The translations under genes and the position numbers were made by a program. Shown here in pieces: positions 198-14,506 of a DNA stretch of 14,506 bases; position 1 is the first letter of the stretch, and each line of letters starts with the position of its first letter. The notes under the pieces are model-generated. The model did no database searches. It was not told where the DNA came from and saw only the letters and a program-made list of their open reading frames with translations. Where the stretch lies: NCBI GenBank assembly GCA_028714615.1, contig JAQTMA010000101.1, positions 1-14,506 of the forward strand, written 5' to 3'. This DNA is from Anaerolineaceae bacterium (lineage in GTDB: Bacteria; Chloroflexota; Anaerolineae; Anaerolineales; Anaerolineaceae).

Positions 198-560
198 TTA
201 TGTTTCCATCCGGAAGTCTCTATTTCCTTTCGAATATGCAACGATCATCTCGGCGCTTGTCTCACCTCGATTCATGGCATTGTGAAAGACACCCGAAGGG
301 ATGATGAGGGTATCGCCAGCCACCATCTCAATCGATTCATCTCCAATCGAGTGTGTCAACTCTCCACAAAGGAGATGGAGGATTTCCTCACAGCTATCAT
401 GACAGTGTCTGGGATTCGATTTTCCTTCTCTGATGACTACTCGCCCTATAGTGATATCGCTACCTGTGAGAACGGCGCTTGCCAACCATGTCAGGGTTCC
501 CCAATCTTCTACGACAGTATTAGCATTCGATTGGTTTTTCGATCTAAATTGGTTATTCAT
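198..560 (-). CDS. Small single-domain cupin protein
   Basis: This 120-residue protein is one cupin beta-barrel. Both signature motifs are complete. Motif 1 runs from G46 with H52, H54, E59 and ends at G66. Motif 2 runs from G82 with P88, G90, H93 and N97. The three His and the Glu are the usual metal ligands, so a divalent metal site is likely. No signal peptide is seen. The ATG overlaps the stop of the upstream oxidoreductase gene (ATGA), which suggests translational coupling and joint function. Small cupins in sugar-catabolic operons can be isomerases, lyases or sugar sensors; nothing in the sequence chooses among these. The gene is last in the minus-strand operon, just before the shared terminator. 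Confidence 0.85.
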   Translation of the reverse strand: MNNQFRSKNQSNANTVVEDWGTLTWLASAVLTGSDITIGRVVIREGKSNPRHCHDSCEEILHLLCGELTHSIGDESIEMVAGDTLIIPSGVFHNAMNRGETSAEMIVAYSKGNRDFRMET

Positions 561-1684
561 CCAATCCCATCCTTGCTAGGGTTATCTGGCCCTAGCAATA
601 TTCGCTTGCCAGGGCCTTCGGCAAAGGCTTCAAAAACCCGCGTTACCTGCCAAGCTTGTTGGAGAGTTCCTTTCGAGGGGGGTCGGTTTTCTAATATTGA
701 TCGGGCAAACTCGTTGACCTCATTGTAATAACCAAGCAGGAACAGTCCCTTGTTGTAAAGTTGGCCTAACGAAAACTCGGGGTCCCATACTGCGGAGGTT
801 TGTTCTGGTATTCCCGTATAGAAACTTGGGAAATCGCCATATCCCAATGGAGGTGTACGATGAAGTGTCACACGAGTGTTGTTTTCCACCGCAATGTGTT
901 GCCCTCTATTGGAGATGATCGTTGTTCGTTCTATACCGCTATTCCATGAAGCCCCGTTCGTCAGAGCGATTGAGGCTATGGTACCGGATGCGTAATGGAA
1001 AGTCGCAAGGCCTGCACCATTGTTGCTTCGTTCATAATAAAGTGATTCTGGCAGGCCAAGCAGGTAGACTAAAAGAGAAACCGGGTGACAAATGTGGTCA
1101 AGAAAACCTACAACAGAATTCGCCCTTGTGTTTTGGAAATAGTCCGTCAACTCTTCCACTGAAGGGACATACAGTGGATATTGGAGGGTCACAAGGTTAG
1201 GTTCCCCAAAATCAGGTGATTTCATCAATTCATACGCCTTCTCGTTGGCAGGGGAAAACATCTTTTTCAAGCCTACGACAACATTCTTCTTGGTAGAATT
1301 AGCAGTTTTCTGCATACGTACTATCTCTGCACAGGAGGCTGCAGGCGGCTTTTCTATCCAGACATGACATCCGGACTTAAGACAATCAACGGTTAATTGC
1401 GGATACTGCGGACGTCCTCGATCATCATATCCGGTGCAGATGAATACGGCATCCAGATTCGCGTTATCCACCATCTGATGATAACTAGAATACACCGACC
1501 TAACACCGAACTTGGCAGCAAATGCCTCTGCCGTTTGAACATTTAGATCGCATACTGCAACCAGATTCACCGGGGCAAACTGAAATACTGGATACAGATT
1601 CCGAAACGAATGAGAACCACAACCAATGAAGCCGGCATTGATCTCGGGCTCGTCCACGGTCTTGCCCTTGAAACTTATGCGCAT
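557..1684 (-). CDS. Gfo/Idh/MocA-family NAD(P)-dependent oxidoreductase
   Basis: This protein of 375 residues has the usual length and layout of the family: an N-terminal Rossmann fold and a C-terminal alpha/beta dimerisation domain. GFIGCGSHS (residues 18-26) is the dinucleotide-binding loop and CDLN (45-48) ends the second strand. WIEKPPA (109-115) carries the conserved EKP motif. DHICHP (196-201) supplies the Asp/His pair typical of the active site. Members oxidise or reduce sugars, inositols and related polyols, or hydrolyse glycosides by an oxidation-elimination route. The open frame extends upstream to 2047, but I place the start at ATG 1684 because a strong AAGGAGGA lies just before it and the extension overlaps the glycosidase gene and has no family similarity. 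It is 53 bp downstream of the glycosidase and overlaps the cupin by 4 bp. Confidence 0.88.
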   Translation of the reverse strand: MRISFKGKTVDEPEINAGFIGCGSHSFRNLYPVFQFAPVNLVAVCDLNVQTAEAFAAKFGVRSVYSSYHQMVDNANLDAVFICTGYDDRGRPQYPQLTVDCLKSGCHVWIEKPPAASCAEIVRMQKTANSTKKNVVVGLKKMFSPANEKAYELMKSPDFGEPNLVTLQYPLYVPSVEELTDYFQNTRANSVVGFLDHICHPVSLLVYLLGLPESLYYERSNNGAGLATFHYASGTIASIALTNGASWNSGIERTTIISNRGQHIAVENNTRVTLHRTPPLGYGDFPSFYTGIPEQTSAVWDPEFSLGQLYNKGLFLLGYYNEVNEFARSILENRPPSKGTLQQAWQVTRVFEAFAEGPGKRILLGPDNPSKDGIG

Positions 1685-1737
1685 AGTTCCTCCTTCCAAA
1701 GGTTTACCATTTTGGTTCGATTCATTTCGAAAGCATT

Positions 1738-4368
1738 TTATAAGCCGATCACAGTTTTCTCGCCATGTATAGCTCTGACCTTCGGCTCTATACTGACAGT
1801 TTTCCCATGCAGCGTGACCTCCAACCGCTCTATCTCCAGCCAGCCTTCTTCCAAGCGGATAATCAGCTCGCTGCCCTTTACAATCAATGCGCCCCAACCG
1901 GTGGCCGTGGAGAAGAATACTTTGAATGGGTCGATCTCGAGGCGTGGATTGAGGTAGAGCGCCTTCTCGGGAATGGAGTAACGAAAGCCCGACAATGCGA
2001 TCAGTAAGCCGTAACTCGCCATGGCTCGGGCATAATAGTTCCCACATTCATATTCATTCCAGGGGTTGCGAGCCAAGCCGTCATACCGGCTGCGTAATGC
2101 TTTTACTATCGTTAGACCTTCGTCAACCAACCCTTCAGCAATCATATGTGCAGCCGCCTGGTATTCGATGCCCGTCCAGACTTCATCTGAATAGACGAAC
2201 GGCAAGGTGGGTTTTCTACCATTCGGCCAGGTGCACAGTAGTAGCCCTGGTTCATCGCCGATGGCGTAGCCTGGGCGTTGTGGATTGGCATGACCCCATA
2301 ACGAAGCCTTGAAGTTATATTGGAAAATGGCTTTGAGGTTTGCTCGGATGTGGTCTTCGTTTTGAGTACTCTTTACGCCGCACAACCTAGCCATCCATGC
2401 TCCAAAAACGCCGTCGGTGATGCAACCCGTACCATATTGATATTTGGGCCCTTCTTCGATCAGCAACTGGTATTCTTCTGGATTAACCTGGCGCAGAGCT
2501 TCCAACTTTTCGTCAGAAGGCGAAGCGCGCAGACCCTTCAGCATGACTTCTTGCTCAAAATACTCCCCATTGAACAATCGTTCGTCCAGGTATCGAGCGC
2601 CTTTCTGTCCTAGTTCTTCATAGAATTTCACATCCTGCGGGCACGCGGCATCCCAAGCTAACCTCGCCATTGCCGCCAGCGCGCCAAGATAGAATCCGGT
2701 GCACATACCGTCGGGTCCCCAGAACTCGATATCGTAGGTATTATGATGGGGCTCCATTAAGACACCCTGGTGATTTGGGTCCCAGTACTGGATGCAAAAA
2801 TCCATGCTTCGTTTTGCCAGTGGGTACATTTCGTGAAGCCAATCTTTATCGCCTGAGATCTGCCATTCACGGTAGACTTTCATGATCCCACCCAACTGTC
2901 CATCTGCGGCTGGATGAAACGTATGCGAAGTTGGCCCATCAGGCAAAGCAGAACGGAAATTCACGTGACCGTCCTCATCCATCGAGTATTTCAATTCTTG
3001 TTCTCGAAAGGTGCGTTCTAGTGCTGGGAACAGGTGTGGAATGGCCTGTGCATAATTCCAGACGTGCGTGCACGATCCATAGCAACTGCCATGGTCGCTG
3101 GCACAGCCTTCCCATGCCCACAGATTTCCGTTGGATTGGCGCAGTATAGTAGGTGATTTGAGAATTGCCAGATTAGCCGACACCGCGTCCAATACATATC
3201 CCGGGAGCGTCGAGCAGAAAAGAGCATCGTGAAAAGCCTGGGTACGCGAGCGCAGGATTGGGTAATGGTCCCGCACATAAATCAAGACATCCTCTGCATC
3301 TTTCCATTGGGATGTGTAGTATGGTTTCCAGCGCGGTTTAGATTTCTGGCAGAAGTTATCAGGCTCGCAGCTAGTTCCACCCAACTGCTCAACATTATTT
3401 TTAACTTCACATTCTGGCTTTTGCACGTCGCCATACGCGTAATTAACGTTGGGGAAAAACCAGGTCAGGATGATCGGATAGGTCATCTTCTCACCCGGCA
3501 TTAAATACCCCTTCATCATAATCGACGCTCCGTTGCGACCTCGGCTCGTCTCCGCTAATGATCCGTCATTGGCGGAGAAGGTACCGGTAGATATTTCCTT
3601 CCACAAGGCCGTAATTCCATCAAACCATTCACCCCGGAACCACATAGCCTTGATTATGGGAATGGGACCTATCACTCCCAGCGCACAGCTACCAAAAATA
3701 TCGGCATTTTCATCGTATGTGTTATACAAATATACGCCTGTGGAGGGAATTACCTTATTACGGGTAGAGTCGTAATCTTTACCAGAATGGCCATGCGCAA
3801 AATGTGACATGTGATACGAGAATTCGAATTCCACGGTCTCTTCTGATGTATTTTTGAAGGTGTATTCCAGAATAGCACATGGAATGGAAGAATTCTTATC
3901 GTCTAAGGGAATAAAAGGATTGAATCCCGTTACGGTCACTGCTAAGGGAATATCAGGATCACTCAATTGCACAACTCCGAAGGGATATTCACCTTTAAAA
4001 AAACAATTATGAAAACGCGGAAGGCCTTCATAACCACCATTAATGTACCCTAATCCCTTGAGTCCTTGATTATAAATGCGCTCGACAGGCATAGGGCCTT
4101 CCACCAAACGAGCGATATCCCGGGAAGGAACGTAGATTGTGGCAAAAGCGCTGTCGCTTAGGTGACGACCATCTGCCATAACTGAGGTGGCCGGTGTGTT
4201 ACGTATAGAGAAATCTTGTAAGCCGCCTTGTCCATTAAGGTTGATACAACCAGCGCCGATTCCTCCTAATGGGAGTGCTATTTGAAGTAGGTTTCGTCCT
4301 CGAAATACCCGTTGTGGCTTGTTCCCATACAGTACTTTCTTGGGATACGGGCTGGCTTTTATCGTCAT
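1738..4368 (-). CDS. GH116-family beta-glycosidase (GBA2/DUF608 type)
   Basis: This 876-residue protein carries the two domains of family GH116, an N-terminal beta-sandwich and a C-terminal (alpha/alpha)6 barrel. LPLGGIGAG, then GGLQDFSIRNTP (about residues 32-59), is the N-domain signature. In the catalytic domain I see WAWEG (E420, predicted nucleophile), CTHVWNYAQAIPHLFP (about 433-448), NTYDIEFWGP (D546, predicted acid/base), EVWTGIEYQ and RNPWNEYECG. Characterised family members hydrolyse beta-glucosides, beta-xylosides or glucosylceramide with retention. No signal peptide is present, so it should act in the cytoplasm on imported glycosides. I choose ATG 4368: AAAGGAG lies 9 bases upstream. 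The in-frame GTG at 4374 would leave only 3 bases. It is first of the enzyme genes after lacI, followed by the oxidoreductase. The exact substrate is not determinable here. Confidence 0.9.
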   Translation of the reverse strand: MTIKASPYPKKVLYGNKPQRVFRGRNLLQIALPLGGIGAGCINLNGQGGLQDFSIRNTPATSVMADGRHLSDSAFATIYVPSRDIARLVEGPMPVERIYNQGLKGLGYINGGYEGLPRFHNCFFKGEYPFGVVQLSDPDIPLAVTVTGFNPFIPLDDKNSSIPCAILEYTFKNTSEETVEFEFSYHMSHFAHGHSGKDYDSTRNKVIPSTGVYLYNTYDENADIFGSCALGVIGPIPIIKAMWFRGEWFDGITALWKEISTGTFSANDGSLAETSRGRNGASIMMKGYLMPGEKMTYPIILTWFFPNVNYAYGDVQKPECEVKNNVEQLGGTSCEPDNFCQKSKPRWKPYYTSQWKDAEDVLIYVRDHYPILRSRTQAFHDALFCSTLPGYVLDAVSANLAILKSPTILRQSNGNLWAWEGCASDHGSCYGSCTHVWNYAQAIPHLFPALERTFREQELKYSMDEDGHVNFRSALPDGPTSHTFHPAADGQLGGIMKVYREWQISGDKDWLHEMYPLAKRSMDFCIQYWDPNHQGVLMEPHHNTYDIEFWGPDGMCTGFYLGALAAMARLAWDAACPQDVKFYEELGQKGARYLDERLFNGEYFEQEVMLKGLRASPSDEKLEALRQVNPEEYQLLIEEGPKYQYGTGCITDGVFGAWMARLCGVKSTQNEDHIRANLKAIFQYNFKASLWGHANPQRPGYAIGDEPGLLLCTWPNGRKPTLPFVYSDEVWTGIEYQAAAHMIAEGLVDEGLTIVKALRSRYDGLARNPWNEYECGNYYARAMASYGLLIALSGFRYSIPEKALYLNPRLEIDPFKVFFSTATGWGALIVKGSELIIRLEEGWLEIERLEVTLHGKTVSIEPKVRAIHGEKTVIGL

Positions 4369-4590
4369 AGACACTTACTCCTTTGATGTTATCGGCAGTG
4401 AGCCAGTTGGAATATCTTAAACCACCTAAATTTATAATTCGAGCTTCCATAAACAATAGCTATGGTTGTGTTCTGCAGATTTTGCTGCCACAATAGTCAA
4501 CTAGGGTGGGTTTTTACTTAATTCTTCTACTCGTTGCCAAGCAATAGATAGCGGACTATAGGAAAAGATCAAAAGAAATCGCGAAAGGGT
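4369..4590. promoter_or_regulatory. Intergenic region upstream of GH116 gene with possible promoter/operator
   Basis: About 220 bp separate the regulator stop from the glycosidase start. I see no terminator after the regulator, so read-through is possible. On the minus strand a TATAAA box (4431-4436) is followed 9 bp later by an 11-base block (4412-4422) identical to part of the candidate operator at 6034-6055. Only 14 of 22 positions match over the full operator length, so this is a weak site. No convincing -35 box accompanies the TATAAA. Confidence 0.3.
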
Positions 4591-5604
4591 TCAGGAAGAA
4601 GCCCTCTCTACAAGGAAAACCGGTAGAGTGATTTTAAGGGGTGCATCCTCCATTTCTGTGGAGTGTTCGATTGTCTGAATTAACCGTCGCGCGGCTTCAA
4701 TACCCATTTCACGTTTGGGCATGTGCACGCTGGTTAGAGGTGGGGAGGAATGAAGACCCTCTGGCGTATCGTCAAAACCGACCAGAGCAATATCTTCTGG
4801 CATACGCAGCCCGACCTCCTGCACTGCCGCCATGGCTCCAAAGGCAGCTCGATCGCTGATGCAAAAGACAGCCCGCGGTGGTTTGGGCCTAGATAGCATG
4901 GCTTTCATCTCCAGATAGCCCTTGCGTGGATTCCCTTTGGACAGATAAGGTTGGATTTGCCAGGGTTCGGGGTAACGCCCAGCTTCCAGCATGGCACGCA
5001 TATATCCCTGCAAACGGTCTGTAAGCGTCTTATATTTTGCAGGTCCCTGGAAAACGGCGATCGGGTCGTAGCCGCGGTCAATCAGATGGCGAGTCGCAAA
5101 GTATCCACCAATCTCGTTATCCGGGACAATTGCATCCATCTCACCATCCAGAAGGTAATTATCAACCAACAAGAGTGGGACGCCTGTACCGGCGATAGAA
5201 CGCAGGAACTTATCAGTGAGGTCGCCTCCGCCGAATGCTGCAACACCCACGAATTCGTTTTTCAGAATTGCGGGTGGAATTTCAAGATCGGATTTTATAT
5301 CGATGGTTGAAATCACCATATGGTAACCTAGCCGGCGGGCTTCATTCTCAAAACCTTGTAGCAAAGGAAGATAAAGGACATCTGAAAAGGCCGGGAAGGT
5401 CAGGTTTTCCATTAGAATAGCGATCAAGTTTGAATGCTCACTTTTTTTAACCCGGCGTGGCGTGTAACCAACCCGCTCGATGGCAGTGGCAATTTTTTCC
5501 TGGGTGGCTTTACTCACCCCTGGTTTTCCGTTTACGCACATCGAAACCAAAGTTATAGAAACGCCAGCTTCTCTAGCGACATCCTTCAAAGTTGACAGTG
5601 CCAT
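4591..5604 (-). CDS. LacI-family transcriptional regulator
   Basis: The 337-residue protein has standard LacI/GalR length and layout. Residues 5-24 ([20 protein letters not shown]) form the DNA-binding helix-turn-helix and the next stretch through VGYTPRR is the hinge helix. From about residue 60 onward comes a periplasmic-binding-protein-like sugar sensor domain, with [19 protein letters not shown] near residues 273-291 typical of the family. It should bind an operator as a dimer and release it, or bind it more tightly, on sensing a sugar. The start ATG has AAGGAA 6 bases upstream. It is the upstream neighbour of the glycosidase operon and divergent from the ABC importer genes. A candidate operator at 5641-5662 lies 37 bp in front of its own start, suggesting autoregulation. 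The HTH has LVSMCVNG where many relatives have TVSRVLNG, so the DNA site may be non-standard. Confidence 0.93.
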
Positions 5605-6385: not shown

Positions 6386-7756
6386 ATGTCTGAAAGTATA
6401 AAAAACCACCAACTGGGACGTCGCGCTTTCCTCAAGGTGGTTGGCACTTTTTCGGCTGGCGCCCTGCTCGTTAGCTGCGCTCCAAAGCTGGAAGCAACCC
6501 CTACAGCAACGGCAGCCGGGGCTGCTGAACTACCCACCAGTGTGCCTCCAGCCAAGGGCGTAATTACCATTCGCGCTACCAACAATTCGCCTATCGACCA
6601 GTTAGACGCATGGTCAGCTTCGATCAAGGATGACTTGGCTGCTAAGAACATCAAACTGGAGCTCTACCAAACCGCGATGGGGAACAGTTGGTCGGAATAT
6701 GCCGATAAAATCGTAACTCAACTCGCCGGAGGCGAGCAATTGGACGTTTTGGATGTCGCTATCGAAGGTCTTCCCCTAATGGGCAGTAAAGACGTTCTGG
6801 TTGATCTTAAACCATTCCTGGAAGCGGATCCAACTACTGCCAACATGGTCAAGAATGATATTTCTCCGGTGCTGACCGACATGTTGACCTACAAAGGAAA
6901 GCTCCTCGAGATCCCATTCTCCTGGAATAATATGGTCCTGTATTACAATACGAAGATCATGGCGGATGCCGGCATTAAAGTTCCCCTGCACATGACCTGG
7001 GATGAATTCCTGAGTATTGCGAAACAGGTTGCCAACGTTAAAGGCACTGCACAGGACCGCTATGCCTATAATTTCTGGCCCTCCGGGACTTTCGGTTGGG
7101 ATTCCTGGCTTTATATGAATGGTGGGCAGGGATACCTGACTGATGATCTGCGAGATTCCAATCTCAATAGCCCCCAAGTGGCCGAGACAATCCAATTCAT
7201 GGCCGACCTTATCCTGAAGCATAAGGTAGCACCCAATCCCGCAGGCTGGGACGAACAAGGTCAATTCCTGGCCGGGAATCTGGTCATGCGCACCGTAGGC
7301 CATTGGGGCATTGGAGGCTTACTGCAGAACAATTTCGCTGATTACGACCTGGTCTACCAGCCGCATAAGAGCGGCTCTGTCCTTACCGTCGCAGGCACGG
7401 ATGGATGGGGGGTTTGTACCAAAAGCAAGTATCAGAGTGAGGCCTTCGCGGTAATAGCTGCTCTGTCCAGTGACGCCCCTTATATGCAAATGCTCAAATT
7501 AGGCGGCAGCATCCCCGCTCGGAAATCTATAGCGGAGAAACCCGAGTTTACGCAATATGGCCCGAAAAACACCGCCATCTTTTATGAATCCCTCGCCGGT
7601 GCCAAAGCCGTTCAGGCGCCCACTAATTTCAACATCATCGAACCGATTGTAAATCGCAACTTTACCCCGATCTGGAGTGGCGAAGCCACGGTGGAAGCCG
7701 CACTCGCCAAAGCACACACTGAACTCCAAGCTGAGATGGACAAAATCAAAAGCTAA
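6386..7756 (+). CDS. Sugar ABC transporter substrate-binding lipoprotein (Tat-type, CUT1 family)
   Basis: The 456-residue protein is an extracytoplasmic solute-binding protein of the MalE/UgpB type. The N-terminus has a twin-arginine motif (GRRAFLK, residues 11-17), a hydrophobic stretch and a lipobox LVSC, with C31 as the expected lipidated cysteine. It should therefore be exported folded through Tat and anchored in the membrane. A Thr/Pro/Ala-rich linker follows (about 34-57), as is common in Chloroflexota. The mature part has the usual alpha/beta binding-protein pattern, for example WDEFLSIAKQ and NLVMRTVGHWGIGG. AAAGGAG lies 8 bases before the ATG. It is the first gene of the importer operon and is separated from the permeases by a strong hairpin. 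The ligand is probably an oligosaccharide or glycoside given the adjacent GH116 gene, which is inference. Confidence 0.92.
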   Translation: MSESIKNHQLGRRAFLKVVGTFSAGALLVSCAPKLEATPTATAAGAAELPTSVPPAKGVITIRATNNSPIDQLDAWSASIKDDLAAKNIKLELYQTAMGNSWSEYADKIVTQLAGGEQLDVLDVAIEGLPLMGSKDVLVDLKPFLEADPTTANMVKNDISPVLTDMLTYKGKLLEIPFSWNNMVLYYNTKIMADAGIKVPLHMTWDEFLSIAKQVANVKGTAQDRYAYNFWPSGTFGWDSWLYMNGGQGYLTDDLRDSNLNSPQVAETIQFMADLILKHKVAPNPAGWDEQGQFLAGNLVMRTVGHWGIGGLLQNNFADYDLVYQPHKSGSVLTVAGTDGWGVCTKSKYQSEAFAVIAALSSDAPYMQMLKLGGSIPARKSIAEKPEFTQYGPKNTAIFYESLAGAKAVQAPTNFNIIEPIVNRNFTPIWSGEATVEAALAKAHTELQAEMDKIKS

Positions 7757-7773
7757 TTTGGTGTTCCGACATT

Positions 7774-7799
7774 CATCTGGGGGGTTCTCCCCCCAGATG
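7774..7799 (+). terminator. Strong intercistronic hairpin between binding-protein and permease genes
   Basis: A perfect 11-bp stem (7774-7784 with 7789-7799) is closed by a TTCT loop; six G-C pairs surround the loop. It is followed by a mixed A/T stretch and not a clean T-run, so it is better read as a partial terminator or mRNA 3'-end stabiliser. Such elements after a binding-protein gene keep its level above that of the permeases. Confidence 0.7.
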
Positions 7800-7821
7800 A
7801 TCATATTATTAGCGAGGAGCA

Positions 7822-8766
7822 ATGACGGGATCCATAACGAACACCAACCCAGGGTATAGAGGAGCCCATAATAAGTATTGGGGGCGAAATTATCGATCAT
7901 ATGAAGCTGCTTCGGGCTATGTTTTCATATTACCAGCGATTGTGGCAATTGGTATATTTCTGGTGATACCCATCCTAATGTCGATTGCCCTTGTTTTCAT
8001 GAAGTATGATGTTCTCACGCCACCAACTTTTGCTGGGTTAAGCAATATCAATAAATTATTCACCGACACTCGTCTGGCCAATTCCTACCTGGTTACACTG
8101 CGGTTTGTCGTGTTTGCTACTATCTCCAACAACATTCTGGGTATTCTGCTGGCCACGGGCATCAACCGAGCTATGCCTTGGGTCATTAAATATCTCTTCC
8201 GCACAGCTTTATTTTTTCCTGTACTGACCACCAGCGCTTCGCTGGCGGTTGTATTTAACTACCTTTTCGCCACCGATCGGGGGATTATCAATTACTATTT
8301 AAGCCTACTTTCAATAAAAGCGATCCCTTGGTTATCCACCTCCACATGGGCGATCAACTCAATCGTCATTTATGACGTTTGGCGCTCGTGCGGCTACCTG
8401 ATGATCTTGTATCTCTCAGGCTTACAGAGCATCCCGAAAGACTACTATGAAGCCGCTGAGATTGACGGTGCTAATCGATTCCAGCTATTTCGATTTATCA
8501 CCCTTCCATTACTCTCACCCACGACTTTCTTTTGCGTGGTCACATCTATCTTGGGCGCAGCTCAAGTGTTCGATAACGCATGGGTGTTAACGCAGGGAGG
8601 TCCACTGGACGCAACGCGCCTTATCACACTATATATTTACGAGAAGGGTTTCAAGGGCTTTGATATGGGTTATGCGGCGACCATTTCCATGACGTTGTTA
8701 GTCATTCTGCTCGTGATCACTCTCCTTCAATTTTGGTTCTCGAAACGATGGGTCCATTACGAATAG
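7822..8766 (+). CDS. Sugar ABC transporter permease, MalF/UgpA type
   Basis: This is a 314-residue inner-membrane protein with about six hydrophobic segments (roughly 31-57, 92-114, 126-150, 176-200, 230-252 and 285-306). The EAA loop that docks on the ATPase is clear at residues 210-229: EAAEIDGANRFQLFRFITLP. It forms the translocation pore with the next gene product. The N-terminal ~28 residues are polar and probably cytoplasmic. The start is ATG 7822 with AGGAG only 2 bases away, which is tight; no better in-frame start is visible before the first membrane segment. The gene lies 65 bp after the binding-protein gene and 22 bp before the second permease gene. Confidence 0.92.
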   Translation: MTGSITNTNPGYRGAHNKYWGRNYRSYEAASGYVFILPAIVAIGIFLVIPILMSIALVFMKYDVLTPPTFAGLSNINKLFTDTRLANSYLVTLRFVVFATISNNILGILLATGINRAMPWVIKYLFRTALFFPVLTTSASLAVVFNYLFATDRGIINYYLSLLSIKAIPWLSTSTWAINSIVIYDVWRSCGYLMILYLSGLQSIPKDYYEAAEIDGANRFQLFRFITLPLLSPTTFFCVVTSILGAAQVFDNAWVLTQGGPLDATRLITLYIYEKGFKGFDMGYAATISMTLLVILLVITLLQFWFSKRWVHYE

Positions 8767-8788
8767 GATAGATAATCTTGGAGGGAAG

Positions 8789-9694
8789 ATGGCTTTTATC
8801 CAGAATGAGAAACCATTAAGTTTGAAAGGTGGAAAAGCAGAAGAAAAGCTCAAGCACCGCTCAGCTTGGAATTATCTAGGTGACGGTTTATTGTGGATTC
8901 CTCTAGTGATAATGGCCCTGATCGAATTCCTTCCGATTAGCTGGTTGTTTGCGAATTCGTTACGCGTACCTGCTGGTGCTTACAATCTTCCTCCCAGCTT
9001 TTGGCCCACCGATTTTCAATGGGTCAATTACCTCAATGTGATCAACTCCCCCAATATTAAATTCCTGCTATTTTTCCAGAACAGCCTGAAAATTGCAGTA
9101 ATTGTAACCATCTCTACGCTATTAACATCTTCCATGGCAGCGTTTGCCTTCGCCCGCTTACATTTTCCTGGCAGGAATACCTTGTTCTTCTTATTCTTGG
9201 CGACCATGATGGTTCCAGGGACCGTTATTTTAATTCCAACTTTCATCATTATCAGCCGGTTGGGCTTGATAAACTCCCATTGGGCATTGATCCTTCCCAG
9301 TTTGACCAGCGCTTTTGGCATCTTTATGCTTCGCCAGCAGTTTATGAATATCCCAGATGCTCTATTGGATGCTGCAAAAATCGACGGTGCAGGTTTCTTT
9401 CGCATCTTCTTCCAGATCATGCTCCCCCTCGTCGGTCCGGGGCTCTCAGCGCTGGGCATCCTCACGTTTCTTGCATCCTGGAACAACCTGCTGATGCCGC
9501 TGCTTTACCTGCGTACGTCCGACAAGTTTACCTTCCCGTTAGCGATCCTCCTCCTACAAGGATACATGGGCAGCGGCAACCGTGCCGAAATACTGGCCGG
9601 TATCATGATCTCTGTTGCGCCGGTGCTGCTCATATTCCTCCTGGCCCAACGCTTCATTATCCAAGGCTTTACTGTTTCGGGCCTAAAAGGTTAA
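8789..9694 (+). CDS. Sugar ABC transporter permease, MalG/UgpE type
   Basis: This 301-residue membrane protein is the partner permease of a CUT1 importer. Hydrophobic segments occur at about 33-57, 99-121, 130-154, 160-182, 205-230 and 265-290. The EAA-type loop at residues 194-213 reads DAAKIDGAGFFRIFFQIMLP, with Asp in place of the leading Glu, a common change in this subfamily. The segment ARLHFPGRN before the third helix is also typical. GGAGG lies 4 bases upstream of the ATG. No ATP-binding subunit gene follows or precedes, so the complex presumably uses a shared MsiK/UgpC-type ATPase encoded elsewhere in the genome. Confidence 0.92.
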   Translation: MAFIQNEKPLSLKGGKAEEKLKHRSAWNYLGDGLLWIPLVIMALIEFLPISWLFANSLRVPAGAYNLPPSFWPTDFQWVNYLNVINSPNIKFLLFFQNSLKIAVIVTISTLLTSSMAAFAFARLHFPGRNTLFFLFLATMMVPGTVILIPTFIIISRLGLINSHWALILPSLTSAFGIFMLRQQFMNIPDALLDAAKIDGAGFFRIFFQIMLPLVGPGLSALGILTFLASWNNLLMPLLYLRTSDKFTFPLAILLLQGYMGSGNRAEILAGIMISVAPVLLIFLLAQRFIIQGFTVSGLKG

Positions 9695-9841: not shown

Positions 9842-10555
9842 GTGAACGAACAATATCCACCGGTTTTGACCTCAAAAACCTTCGTACAAGAGACCGCAAT
9901 TGAATTGTGGGAAATGCTTCCAACCGTACTCCTATCTGGTTTCCTGTTCACCCTGATCAGCCTGCCGGCGCTGGTTATTATCCTGATGAACATGACTGGC
10001 CTAGCGATCCTGGTCGGGATTGTGACTATAGGTCCGGGTTGGATATCGATGAGTTCCTTAATCGCGAGGGCCCTTTTACACGAATCTGCCACGATCGTGG
10101 ATTTTTTCAAGGCTTTCGCAAGTTTCTATATGCGTGGTGTACTATTGGGCACCTTGTTCGCACTACCATTGATCTCCGCTGCCTGGCTACTGCCGTCGCT
10201 GCTAATCCCCCCTATTCCAACCTTAATCTGGGTGGGCTTGGCTGCCGATGTCTCCGGGGTCTTCCTATTATCGGCTTTGTCACTGTATACCTACCCGCAG
10301 ATAGTTCTGTACAATCTAGGAGCAATGACAGCGCTGAAAAACAGTCTGCTCTTGGCCGCCCGTTACTTGAGTGATACCATCGGCCTGCTGGCGATGGCGG
10401 TTTTGTTTGCGTTACTGAGCATAAAAGTCAGTTACTTTCTCCTGATGGTGTTGCCAGCCTGCTGGCTAGTTTTCGTGATTAACCACTGCCGCATGGTAAT
10501 TTCGATAGAAATAGGGCAGATCGCCCATCCGAGCAGCCATCAGGGTCCAGAATAG
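9842..10555 (+). CDS. YesL-like (DUF624) integral membrane protein
   Basis: The 237-residue protein is strongly hydrophobic, with five to six predicted membrane segments (about 25-50, 52-73, 97-116, 120-150, 178-193 and 195-215). The pattern IGPGWISMSSLIARAL (63-78), then DFFKAFASFYMRGVLLG (87-103), and the region TYPQIVLYNLGAMTALKNSLLLAARY (start about 150) resemble the DUF624/YesL family, found beside sugar ABC permeases in many bacteria; its biochemical role is unknown. Translation starts at GTG 9842, with AAGGA 6 bases upstream. Six bases separate it from the chaperonin-like gene, so the two are surely co-transcribed. The family assignment is moderate because it rests on pattern and context. 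Confidence 0.7.
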   Translation: MNEQYPPVLTSKTFVQETAIELWEMLPTVLLSGFLFTLISLPALVIILMNMTGLAILVGIVTIGPGWISMSSLIARALLHESATIVDFFKAFASFYMRGVLLGTLFALPLISAAWLLPSLLIPPIPTLIWVGLAADVSGVFLLSALSLYTYPQIVLYNLGAMTALKNSLLLAARYLSDTIGLLAMAVLFALLSIKVSYFLLMVLPACWLVFVINHCRMVISIEIGQIAHPSSHQGPE

Positions 10556-10561
10556 CCCGCA

Positions 10562-12199
10562 ATGAATAATCACAGACGCAGTCTTGCTGCCTTCGGCGTT
10601 ACCCACCAGCCTCAAACTTATCAGGGCATGTTAGCAGGCGTATCTAAGCTCACCAGCGCCATACGTCCGACGCTTGGCCCCTTTCCACGCATGGTCGTTC
10701 TATCCTCAAGCAGACCTGGTAAGGCTCCAGAGCTTCTGGATGACGGCGGATTGATCGCCCGGCGGCTAGTCCAAGTTCTAGACCGCGATGAAGATATAGG
10801 AGTAATGTACCTGCGCCACCTGTTGTGGCGCATACGCGAGGACTGCGGCGATGGGACCGCCACTGCAGCCGTAATGTTCGAAGAAATATTCAAGCAGGGT
10901 ATCCGGCACATCGTCAATGGCGGACATGCCATGCCTTTACGCAGATATCTTGAAAAAGGCGCAAGGCTGGTACTCGCCGAGCTAAAGGAAATAGCTCGTC
11001 CAGTCCAAGGACGCGATAAGGTGATGCGCATCGCTAAATCGATGTGCTATGACCCGGCGATGGCGGAACTACTAGGTGAGATTTTCGATACGATCGGAGA
11101 GTACGGGCATTTTGAGTTGCGCGAAAGCCAAGGACGCGGGCTCGAGTACAAATTCACCACCGGTTCTTACTGGGAGGGCCCGTTGCACTCAAAACTAATG
11201 ATCAATCAACCAGCAGAGAAACGCGCCGTATTCGAAAATGCAGGCGTCGTCGTGACAGATTTTGCGATAGAAGAACCACAACACCTGGTTCACGTCTTGG
11301 TTGAAGCCCGGAAAGCTGGCATAACTAGCCTGCTCATGATCTGCAACTCAATCAGCGATCCCTGTCTCGGCTTTTTGATGGCCGAATCCACTCGGAAATT
11401 TTTGTCGGTCATCACGGTGAAAACTCCATCACAGCTTCTTGAAGAACAGTCGGGTGGTATGGAAGATATTGCTGTGCTAACCGGCGCAAAGCCGCTGACA
11501 CTGCATGCCGGCGAAACATTGGAGAGCGTTACTCCCAACCACTTTGGGCAGGCGCGACTGGTGTGGGCTGATCACCAGTTCTTCGGCATTCAAGGAGGCC
11601 AAGGGAATCCGCGTACCATACGGCAGCATGTCTCATCGCTCAAAAAGCTGCATGCCAGCCTGGAAGATGGCAAAATGCGCTCATTGGTGCGCAGCCGTAT
11701 CGGAAATATGCTGGGCGGATCTGCCATTTTGTTTATTGGAGGAGCCACTGAGGTGGAGATCAACGTAAACAAAGATCTGGCTGAACGCGCGGCTGAATCT
11801 ATCCGCGGCGCCATAGCCAAGGGTATATTGCCGGGTGGTGGAGCAGCCTTGCTGGTTTGCAAGCCGGCTTTACAAACCGCAATGGATCAGGCCAACGACC
11901 CGGACGAAATTGCAGCTTACAGCATTTTATTGCGTGCCATGGATATTCCCTTACGCACGATCTCTGCTAATGCCGGAATCTCTCCCGAGGATGTATTTGC
12001 GGAAATAAAACAGGCTGGTCCCGATCATGGCTACGACGTGCGCAAGCGGGGGGTATTTTCCATTGATCAAACTGAGATTTTCGACACGGCCTACACTGTC
12101 CAAGAGGCTGCATACCGAAGTATCGTCGGGGCAGCCCTCTTACTTACAGTAGATGTGCTTGTGCATCACAAAAAACGAGAAACTGTTATGGATACGTAA
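10562..12199 (+). CDS. Divergent GroEL/Cpn60-like protein, predicted to lack the catalytic Asp
   Basis: The 545 residues align over their whole length with group I chaperonins. Conserved pocket elements are TLGP (37-40), DDGG (60-63, D61 matching GroEL D52), GDGTAT (96-101, D97 matching D87), GGATEVE (393-399), PGGG (424-427) and FDTAYTV (507-513, D508 matching D495). Counting from GATEVE, GroEL D398, needed for ATP hydrolysis, falls on R409. The apical domain has SYWEGPLHSKLM where GroEL has the substrate/GroES-binding GYLSPYF region. The PGFGDRR segment is replaced by TPSQLLEEQSGG. The C-terminus ends HHKKRETVMDT without a GGM tail. No groES is adjacent. It sits between the DUF624 gene and the propeller gene with gaps of 6 and 2 bp. 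Slow ATP turnover or a purely structural ring is possible. Confidence 0.88.
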   Translation: MNNHRRSLAAFGVTHQPQTYQGMLAGVSKLTSAIRPTLGPFPRMVVLSSSRPGKAPELLDDGGLIARRLVQVLDRDEDIGVMYLRHLLWRIREDCGDGTATAAVMFEEIFKQGIRHIVNGGHAMPLRRYLEKGARLVLAELKEIARPVQGRDKVMRIAKSMCYDPAMAELLGEIFDTIGEYGHFELRESQGRGLEYKFTTGSYWEGPLHSKLMINQPAEKRAVFENAGVVVTDFAIEEPQHLVHVLVEARKAGITSLLMICNSISDPCLGFLMAESTRKFLSVITVKTPSQLLEEQSGGMEDIAVLTGAKPLTLHAGETLESVTPNHFGQARLVWADHQFFGIQGGQGNPRTIRQHVSSLKKLHASLEDGKMRSLVRSRIGNMLGGSAILFIGGATEVEINVNKDLAERAAESIRGAIAKGILPGGGAALLVCKPALQTAMDQANDPDEIAAYSILLRAMDIPLRTISANAGISPEDVFAEIKQAGPDHGYDVRKRGVFSIDQTEIFDTAYTVQEAAYRSIVGAALLLTVDVLVHHKKRETVMDT

Positions 12200-12201
12200 A
12201 C

Positions 12202-13110
12202 ATGGAAATTAATCTTGGGTCGTGCCATATCTGCGGATTAGCACTATCGCCCGATTATATGGTCGACGGACTTGGTTTTATAGCCACTGACCAAACTTTG
12301 CTAATCAGCCGCAACGGCGGAAATACCTGGCAAGATGCGCTTAAGGTTACACGAGCCGGTAAGTCCGTGCCGGTACTCTCGGTGTTGTTCTCCAACCGGA
12401 TCGGGGAGAGGCAAGTCCTAGCAGGTGTTTCGGGTGGGGTTCTTCGCTCTACGGATGATGGGGAAACCTGGCAAGTGATTACTTTTTCCTCACCACTGCC
12501 GTTGGTCACGGCGTTAGTTGAATCCGCTAATACCTTGTTTGCAGGTACCGCCCAAGATGGCGTTTTGCTCTCAAACGACGGTGGTCTCACCTGGGAGCGC
12601 TGGAATTTTGGGCTGTTGGACGGTAATATCTATGCTCTGTCGGTTGTGCAATGGGCCGATGGTAATACCGAGGTGTTTGTTGGCACCGAAACTGGGATTT
12701 TCTCCAGTGTCAATAATGGGCGTTCTTGGCGAGAAACCAATTTCCCTATTGAGATGGCACCGGTGCTATCCTTGTGTTCGCTGGCGCCCCAAGCTGGATC
12801 GGATCCATGTGGGTGGCTATTTGCCGGAACTGAGGCTGGAAACCTTTTCCGTTCATCCGATCAAGGACGAACCTGGGAAGCCACCGGTCAGGGTAACTTT
12901 GGCGCCGAAATCAGCGCTCTAGCAACGTTCGATGGCAACTTATATGCCGCTAGTGGGGATAAAGTGTGCATCTCGTCCGATAATGGAACCGTATGGCGTC
13001 GGTGGGATGCGCCTGCAGTAGTTTCTGGCGTGTTTACATGCCTGGCTTCGCTGCAGAATGGCTTGCTCCTGGCAGGCACCAGCGGGGGACAGGTTTTCCA
13101 AATTATTTGA
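12202..13110 (+). CDS. Asp-box (BNR-type) beta-propeller protein, apparently cytosolic
   Basis: The 302-residue protein is almost entirely beta-propeller. Six Asp-box motifs of the form S-x-D/N-x-G-x-T/S/V-W begin at residues 36, 83, 124, 169, 218 and 258, spaced 40-49 residues apart, so six blades are likely. The phrase LALSPDY (13-19) before the first blade is common in Asp-box proteins. No signal peptide or membrane segment is visible, which is unusual because many Asp-box proteins are secreted. A CHIC motif (C8-C11) lies at the N-terminus. Asp-boxes alone do not show sialidase activity: no catalytic Arg triad pattern is evident and I do not call an enzyme. The gene starts 2 bases after the chaperonin-like stop and has a weak ribosome-binding sequence, which suggests coupled translation and a partner role for the chaperonin-like protein. 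Confidence 0.82.
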   Translation: MEINLGSCHICGLALSPDYMVDGLGFIATDQTLLISRNGGNTWQDALKVTRAGKSVPVLSVLFSNRIGERQVLAGVSGGVLRSTDDGETWQVITFSSPLPLVTALVESANTLFAGTAQDGVLLSNDGGLTWERWNFGLLDGNIYALSVVQWADGNTEVFVGTETGIFSSVNNGRSWRETNFPIEMAPVLSLCSLAPQAGSDPCGWLFAGTEAGNLFRSSDQGRTWEATGQGNFGAEISALATFDGNLYAASGDKVCISSDNGTVWRRWDAPAVVSGVFTCLASLQNGLLLAGTSGGQVFQII

Positions 13111-13239: not shown

Positions 13240-14361
13240 TTATGCTTTGTCCAGGAAAGCCTTTGCGGCCTTGCGCGCCTTCGGGCTGGGGCTATCCAGC
13301 AGGCGCGCGGCAAAGGCCAGGATTTGGTCGCGCTCGGGAGCCGCGTCAGCGAAGGCTTCCAGCGACGCCAGGATATCTGTCTTGATCAGGTCGCGCCGCT
13401 CTGCATCGCGCGGGGAGCGCTCGACCTCCAACAGGCGAGCAACAATGCGATCGCGGAGCATGGGTAAGTCGCGTATCAAAATCCCGGTACTCTGCGCCAT
13501 CTGACGCGCGACGACAATACTTCCGTCTTCCAACAGGCTGAAGTACCGCTCAAAAATTGACTCAAAACGCTGGCCCTGATCTACTCCGGCGGTTTTTGCG
13601 ATGAGCTGCGCGCCGATCGAGCGGTGGAACGCATTCGTGCTTTCCAGCATACGGCAGAAATATTCCCAGGAAGGAGATAGCGCCGCGGGTTTGCGGTCGC
13701 CAATTTGAAGGAGCGTCTTGAAGCAGGAATAGCGCAGCACGTCATTGGTCGACTGCAGCGCCTGCAGCAGTTGGTCCAGGAAACATGGGTCCGCCAGCGC
13801 CAGATAGACCGCTTCGTCCAGGTCGGCGTTCTTATCGATGCCTAGCCCGGCCAACGCCCGTCCGACCGGGTAGGGTGTTTCGTTCTTCTTCTCCATGGAA
13901 TGGTCCCCTTTCATCAATCCGCTCTTTAACCGGTACCCCTGCAGGATGCGCTCGACAGGGCTCCAACCGATGTACGCCAGCTTCGTCCAACCTTCAGGCG
14001 GAGGCAGGCTCTCGACGGCCTGATAATCGTCCACGCGTACGCAACCCCAGGCGTGTACCACTTTACCGTCACCCATGCACAGCCCCACGTGTCCCCAGTT
14101 CTTATACTGGCCGAACAGCTCGCCCGAGCAGTCATAAAAGACGAAGGCTCCAAGAGGAGGCTTGCCGGTGATGCCCGCCGCCTCGTACTCGTCCGCGGAT
14201 TCTTTGGCGCTGCTGCCGCCGAACATCTCGATCCCGTTCGACTTTTCGTAAGCGTCCTCAACGAATGCCAGGCAGCGGGACGTGTAGCGGTTCTCGCCCA
14301 GGTGGCTGAGCGCCCAGTCGATCGCATTTTTGACGTAGGAATGGAATTCGGGATCCGTCAT
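13240..14361 (-). CDS. NlpC/P60-like cysteine peptidase domain fused to HEAT-like repeats
   Basis: The 373-residue protein has two parts. Residues 1 to about 150 resemble an NlpC/P60-type fold: C30 in SRCLAFVEDAY is the likely nucleophile, H91 lies in GHVGLCMGDG, and H103 in VVHAWG lies 12 residues later, the same spacing as the two active-site His of E. coli Spr. Residues from about 160 to the end form helical HEAT-like repeats. I see no signal peptide. I start at ATG 14361, whose ATGA overlaps the stop of the upstream gene, and not at ATG 14376. An internal ATG at 13896 (M156) has AGGGG 8 bases upstream and could give a separate 218-residue helical-repeat protein. The gene is convergent with the propeller gene and richer in G+C. 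Substrate unknown; peptidoglycan hydrolysis is a family possibility. Confidence 0.7.
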   Translation of the reverse strand: MTDPEFHSYVKNAIDWALSHLGENRYTSRCLAFVEDAYEKSNGIEMFGGSSAKESADEYEAAGITGKPPLGAFVFYDCSGELFGQYKNWGHVGLCMGDGKVVHAWGCVRVDDYQAVESLPPPEGWTKLAYIGWSPVERILQGYRLKSGLMKGDHSMEKKNETPYPVGRALAGLGIDKNADLDEAVYLALADPCFLDQLLQALQSTNDVLRYSCFKTLLQIGDRKPAALSPSWEYFCRMLESTNAFHRSIGAQLIAKTAGVDQGQRFESIFERYFSLLEDGSIVVARQMAQSTGILIRDLPMLRDRIVARLLEVERSPRDAERRDLIKTDILASLEAFADAAPERDQILAFAARLLDSPSPKARKAAKAFLDKA

Positions 14362-14506
14362 CCGGTGAGTCCCCATTCTACCCGCTCGGATGCTCTTTCC
14401 CGGATCGAAGGCTTCGCGTCACGGCTCAAGATCTCTAACACCCGTTTGGTGGCCTTATCGTTATAGACCAGGCGAGAGCGTACACCTTCGTCGGGGTCGG
14501 CAGCCA
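14358..14506 (-). CDS. Helical-repeat (LRV/HEAT-like) protein, C-terminal fragment
   Basis: The frame is open from the right edge of the window to TGA at 14358-14360 and encodes 48 residues: it begins AADPDEGVRSRLVYNDKATK and ends ERVEWGLTG. The pattern of an Asp/Pro turn, VRSRL, KATKRVLEILSRD and then IRERA resembles leucine-rich-variant or HEAT/ARM-like helical repeats, in which each unit packs two short helices. The stop overlaps the start of the NlpC/P60-HEAT gene by 4 bp, so the two genes are one translation-coupled operon. The start and most of the protein are outside the window. No function can be assigned beyond a likely protein-binding scaffold. Confidence 0.6.
   Translation of the reverse strand, partial: AADPDEGVRSRLVYNDKATKRVLEILSRDAKPSIRERASERVEWGLTG

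Follow-up and report, generated by a model that had tools for sequence, protein, structure and literature searches.

A group I-like chaperonin clade with arginine at the position of GroEL D398, represented by a gene next to a seven-bladed beta-propeller gene

The window, by which we mean the whole stretch of 14,506 nucleotides that was analysed, carries a gene for a GroEL-like chaperonin located downstream of a sugar operon and directly upstream of a gene for a beta-propeller protein, in the following arrangement:

557 to 2047, minus strand: Gfo/Idh/MocA dehydrogenase
1738 to 4374, minus strand: GH116-type glycoside hydrolase
4591 to 5604, minus strand: LacI-type regulator, transcribed away from the sugar ABC transporter genes
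6386 to 9694, plus strand: sugar-type ABC transporter (binding protein 6386 to 7756, permeases 7822 to 8766 and 8789 to 9694)
9842 to 10555, plus strand: membrane-type protein of 237 aa, 6 bp upstream of the chaperonin gene, resembling the MusI family only weakly (23 bits, cut-off 160)
10562 to 12199, plus strand: Arg398-type Cpn60 (GroEL-like) of 545 aa, with an ATG start
12202 to 13110, plus strand: seven-bladed BNR/YCF48-like beta-propeller of 302 aa, starting 2 bp after the chaperonin stop
13240 to 14376, minus strand: gene running towards that of the propeller; its product matches NlpC/P60 and HEAT repeats weakly

By homology and fold, the product of the gene at 10562 to 12199 belongs to the Cpn60 superfamily, yet it lacks the catalytic aspartate, the tail and the equivalog score of GroEL. 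Its sole Pfam match is PF00118 (residues 30 to 537, 104 bits, cut-off 34.3), a match also found in all 32 scanned members of the family profile A1, and its best PDB alignment covers residues 21 to 536 against solved group I chaperonins, with Foldseek identities to such structures of 24-28% among the 50 matches listed. The three-domain group I fold is present, and the AlphaFold2 monomer model shows a full-length fold (pTM 0.80) that resembles the closed, GroES-bound state, lying 2.7 A from 4v4o_C and about 10-12 A from open, uncapped structures; AlphaFold2 may favour this closed state for any Cpn60. In regard to NCBIfam, the two best GroEL models gave 299 bits (cut-off 352) and 275 bits (cut-off 582, the GroEL equivalog TIGR02348), the GroEL models other than the chlamydial ones ranged over 172-299 bits, and every GroEL cut-off lies above the score obtained. 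Group II/III (type II; thermosome/CCT) identity was ruled out by scores of 22-30 bits against cut-offs of 400-710. The chlamydial GroEL2 and GroEL3 are likewise divergent group I paralogues, but a Chlamydia-type variant was also ruled out, as the window protein reached only 77 and 95 bits with these models, whose cut-offs are 600.

The comparisons that follow rest on a family sample of 152 listed proteins, including the window's own, drawn from the best 120 of 2323 and the best 120 of 2270 matches. The GGM (Gly-Met) C-terminal tail, which the initial annotation had described as altered, is found in none of these 152 proteins. One study reports that bacteria with several chaperonins retain at least one with a Gly-Met tail, and that this tail is also missing from some known group I paralogues (PMC11978752). 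No groES was found either, as the annotation had also stated: all 40 window ORFs of at least 80 aa were scanned and none has a groES Pfam match. Loss of the tail from the whole family, together with the presence of R197 in only 29/152 members, could be explained if the protein were a scaffold and not a chaperone, acting as a monomer or small oligomer whose Cpn60 fold serves to hold nucleotide or a protein partner. However, R452 (150/152) and E386 (140/152) are kept and the predicted fold is full-length, so we regard such a scaffold as very improbable.

The residues of the nucleotide pocket that are discussed here are encoded, all on the plus strand, as follows:

10739 to 10744, plus strand: codons of D60 (GroEL K51) and D61 (GroEL D52); the Asp60 equivalent is present in 152/152 members
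10763 to 10765, plus strand: codon of R68 (GroEL E59); Arg in 152/152
10850 to 10861, plus strand: D97-G-T-A100, the GroEL D87 to T90 segment
11786 to 11788, plus strand: CGC codon of R409 (GroEL D398)
12083 to 12085, plus strand: codon of D508 (GroEL D495)

In the alignment with E. coli GroEL (MG1655 b4143, L004), whose standard numbering is used throughout, R409 falls at D398, as the initial annotation had proposed, while D61, D97 and D508 fall at D52, D87 and D495. Arginine occupies the D398 column in 151/151 readable family members, window included; the remaining protein (P0042) diverges from the family just before this column and was counted as a gap. In contrast, all 42 other Cpn60s used as controls carry aspartate there. 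These comprise 30 proteins from the phylum of a Lachnospiraceae genome (G001), chosen because they matched the family profile best and hence a non-random set, eight phage proteins hand-picked from 30 listed, two plasmid proteins from 40 listed, E. coli GroEL and the Lachnospiraceae protein itself. On the family tree, parsimony assigns 0 changes to the Arg column; the median for the 541 columns is 17. The 151 arginines therefore rule out that an ordinary GroEL has merely acquired a lone substitution or a sequencing error here, and the probability of this can be taken as negligible. A shifted acidic residue was also considered, but between E. coli 386 and 412 none of the positions holds an acid in every one of the 152 members. 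The best is 388 (148); of those nearest to 398, position 397 is acidic in 72, 394 in 133 and 401 in 104. Thus, no neighbouring acid clearly replaces D398.

Changes in the pocket extend beyond D398. The D52 column holds D in 93, N in 37, S in 21 and E in one of the 152 members, against D in 41/41 readable controls (one Bacillota control is gapped at 51, 52 and 59). All 58 members with N or S also carry Arg398, leaving them devoid of both catalytic aspartates. On the other hand, the window's own clade retains D52 in 23/23. The column underwent 26 changes on the family tree, more than 69% of columns (median 17), and shows no clear partner in covariation. The water-activating dyad has hence been dismantled in this family: Arg is fixed in place of D398, and D52 varies freely in members other than those of the window's clade. 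The initial annotation had D52, D87 and D495 as kept, which is correct for the window and extends to the family for D87 (152/152) and D495 (151/152), but D52 is kept in only 93/152. Its list of changes was also incomplete, since three further substitutions in or near the pocket, K51->D, E59->R and T90->A, are near-fixed. Position 51 is Lys in E. coli, Asn in 27/30 of the G001-phylum controls and Asp in all family members, while position 90 is Thr in 42/42 controls and Ala in 145/152 members. E59->R is the weakest of these signs and may mean little, since position 59 is also variable in the eight phage controls. Other family-wide differences from both reference GroELs are G35->P and A413->P (149/152 each). 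Loops that are kept include TLGP (151/152) and the GGG loop (414 and 416 in 151/152 each, 415 in 141/152). In sum of likenesses, the family shares with GroEL/Cpn60 the full-length PF00118 match, the three-domain fold, the TLGP, GDGT and GGG loops, D87 and D495, and differs from it in D398->R, K51->D, E59->R, T90->A, the variable D52 and the missing GGM tail, to which the window adds a lack of groES among its scanned ORFs and scores below the NCBIfam GroEL cut-offs.

In group I chaperonins D398 plays a key part in catalysis, and the E. coli D398A mutant is a standard tool. In the D52A/D398A double mutant the catalytic aspartates are lost and ATP binding is kept. We take Asp50 and Asp397 of Hsp60 to be the equivalents of GroEL D52 and D398. 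These two Hsp60 residues have been modelled as a catalytic dyad (PMC12557358), and the GroEL double mutant appears in a table of another paper, where it is written D52A/D358A (PMC5941174). For E. coli GroEL D398A, normal ATP binding and 3% ATPase activity are reported, and this mutant still encapsulates and folds protein (PMC3326522). Therefore, loss of D398 alone does not abolish chaperoning. The family resembles both laboratory mutants in the loss of catalytic aspartate, and in its kept loops, which would allow ATP binding as in the mutants, but here Arg398 is natural, cladewide, reversed in charge and accompanied by other fixed changes. Judging from the residues kept and lost, ATP binding is probably retained and canonical hydrolysis is probably weak. 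In the window protein hydrolysis may persist in part, since its clade keeps D52. Alternatively, the enzyme could be an active ATPase by another route, in which R409 acts as an arginine finger on the gamma-phosphate, D61 or D97 activates water, and the ring cycles normally with a re-engineered site. Strict fixation of Arg is what would be expected of a catalytic or phosphate-binding residue, and D87 in all members and D52 in the window's clade would supply the acids. However, D52 is N or S in 58/152 members, all with Arg398, which leaves the old dyad without an acid there, and T90 is Ala in 145/152. We consider this alternative unlikely, although credible enough to be kept in mind.

Phylogenetic analysis of 26 hand-picked family members out of the 152 and the 42 controls recovered the family as monophyletic, with support of 1.0 and a stem of 1.26. 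Mean tree distances were 1.08 within the family, 0.62 among the 34 cellular controls and 2.92 between the two; a first tree with a single outgroup had a label of 0.45 on the family stem. As far as these trees indicate, the family is a deep clade separate from ordinary GroEL. The gene is thus a member of a distinct group I-like chaperonin clade, for which we propose the name Cpn60-R. We found no account of an Arg398-type chaperonin in the open-access papers that were searched.

Three family members carry organism names, P0056 and P0135 being labelled 'Anaerolineae bacterium' and P0006 'Anaerolineaceae bacterium', and the assignment of the window to Chloroflexota is consistent with them. Within 398 genomes of the G001 phylum the family was not seen: profile A1 gave at best 404 bits there, with 7/398 genomes having no match, compared to at least 880 bits in the 120 listed family members. 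A scan of genome contigs returned only the ordinary Lachnospiraceae GroEL at 25% identity, and scans of viral contigs returned no relative of either the chaperonin or the propeller. Plasmid and phage matches listed for the chaperonin were GroELs only, which covered most of the query with roughly 30% identity at most, along with one 108-residue fragment at 35%, while the 15 plasmid matches listed for the propeller were all at 34% identity or less.

The gene that follows the chaperonin encodes a propeller whose AlphaFold2 model (pLDDT 95.1) contains seven strand sets in its secondary structure. The best Foldseek match was YCF48 (5oj3, E 3.5e-12, TM 0.69). A second aligner placed a designed seven-bladed propeller first by Z (7big, Z 30.1, 2.4 A over 269), with virginiamycin B lyase and WD40 proteins also among its top matches and YCF48 absent from the 50 matches listed. 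NCBIfam scored the F510_1955 glycosylhydrolase model (83.5 bits, cut-off 175) above Ycf48 (43.6 bits, cut-off 326). No evident signal peptide was found, and the protein is probably cytosolic. With YCF48, a photosystem II assembly factor, it shares the seven-bladed BNR propeller, but differs in having no evident signal peptide, in being encoded beside a chaperonin and in the following signature:

12601 to 12621, plus strand: WNFGLLD motif in the loop from blade 3 to blade 4, exact in 116 of the 120 listed proteins, window included

The listed proteins are the best 120 of 2379 matches (P0153-P0272), and one source calls these homologues photosystem II stability/assembly factor-like. Mean conservation is highest in the WNFGLLD loop (0.92); the SPxP (0.79) and FPxxxAP (0.62) loops also exceed those between blades 5/6 and 6/7 (0.35 and 0.32).

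Whether the two genes also lie together elsewhere was approached through the longest-contig sizes given for the homologues, 151 of the chaperonin and 119 of the propeller, used in place of gene order. Six sizes coincide exactly (15705, 3466, 10315, 12428, 10943 and 44240), and for 6/6 of these contigs the same source appears in both lists; in the 15705 pair, six contigs are reported for both proteins. Among contigs of at least 10 kb there are five coincidences, whereas 120 shifted comparisons averaged 0.05 and never exceeded 1. When all sizes are taken there are six coincidences, and the null averages 1.24 and reaches its maximum of 6 in one shift. As the null can reach six when short contigs are included, the 3466-bp pair by itself is no evidence. 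Three of the pairs fall inside the window's clade and three outside. Furthermore, chaperonin and propeller identities agree over the seven pairs that include the window (Mantel r 0.66, matched by 0.75% of pairings), while without the window pair the agreement is borderline (r 0.72, 5.3% of pairings as good). The chaperonin and the propeller are likely co-inherited.

What recurs beside the chaperonin is the propeller and not the sugar operon, which bears on the proposal of the initial annotation that the chaperonin is dedicated to the proteins of that operon. The chaperonin gene is co-directional with the sugar-type ABC transporter genes and follows the membrane protein gene after 6 bp, but 147 bp separate the last permease gene from the membrane-type gene, and the linkage that recurs outside the window is with the downstream propeller gene. 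Dedication to the sugar operon was thus not borne out and is quite improbable; on present evidence the operon is best described as a plain neighbour.

It is also possible, although improbable in our view, that the propeller is a cap or co-chaperonin replacing GroES, with its seven-bladed disc placed on the seven-membered apical ring through conserved inter-blade loops. The number of blades in the model, the lack of groES among the window ORFs, the apparent co-travelling of the two genes and the conservation of the SPxP, WNFGLLD and FPxxxAP loops above that of the 5/6 and 6/7 junctions would all fit such a role. Positions 203, 234, 237 and 264 presumably line the GroES/client groove. Positions 234 and 237 remain hydrophobic in nearly all members, but the residue at 203 (Y203 in GroEL) is Q or E in 116/152, which would mean an altered GroES/client surface, and position 264 is Ala in 105/152. 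On the other hand, the conserved loops lie at three blade junctions rather than seven, so that a seven-fold fit is not indicated, and GroES could be encoded elsewhere in the genome. The cap reading is less well supported than the client reading. The linkage itself would fit a client as well as a cofactor.

Arg398 and the linkage to the propeller suggest that the chaperonin is specialised for folding and that its ATP cycle is altered. Since the three-domain fold and the nucleotide-binding loops are kept, the subunit probably forms rings and binds ATP-Mg, as far as sequence and model allow. Helix M would close on the nucleotide as in GroEL, where R409 could contact the phosphates and/or form a salt bridge with D60/D61, thereby taking the place of the water-activating acid. 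Binding of ATP would then close the ring and hydrolysis would be slow, so that the product would be a clamp or a long-timer chamber instead of a fast folding cycle. The co-encoded seven-bladed YCF48-like propeller would be its dedicated substrate or partner, a role resembling that of eukaryotic CCT for seven-bladed WD40 proteins. A specialised group I-like chaperonin, with canonical hydrolysis slowed or abolished and serving the seven-bladed propeller, is the best explanation of the observations, and we give it about an even chance. The notion of a repurposed chaperonin in the initial annotation is thereby upheld in part: the protein is GroEL-type, its ATP-binding loops are kept and its catalytic Asp is gone cladewide, while dedication to the sugar operon falls away.

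A more specific version, which we put forward as a rather doubtful extension, is a two-component machine in which closure depends on binding and not on hydrolysis, by means of an Asp/Arg, Asn/Arg or Ser/Arg pair, with the co-inherited propeller as a GroES-replacing cap or as the single obligate client. If true, bacteria would have a group I counterpart of CCT and its WD40 proteins. CCT is a group II chaperonin that is built of eight different subunits and carries its own lid. It is reported to serve seven-bladed WD40 proteins (PMC8544692). The proposed likeness is that of a chaperonin serving seven-bladed propellers, where the client relation on the bacterial side is suggested by gene linkage only; the difference is that here the chaperonin is a group I-like subunit and the propeller is of the BNR/YCF48 type. 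In a broader context, a natural Arg398 clade with a drifting D52 and kept ATP loops offers a ready test of why chaperonins need hydrolysis, and the linked propeller family is a concrete candidate client or cofactor.

Several minor observations concern the chaperonin family and the remaining genes of the window. A DUF6381 (PF19908) match occurs beside Cpn60 in P0050 and P0112, and in 3/32 members of A1. The dehydrogenase ORF at 557 to 2047, as listed, overlaps the GH116-type hydrolase gene by 310 bases, and its true start is therefore probably further in. Finally, a strong hairpin of 12 pairs, eight of them G-C, lies at 7773 to 7800, right after the binding-protein gene and before the permease genes, where it may limit read-through.
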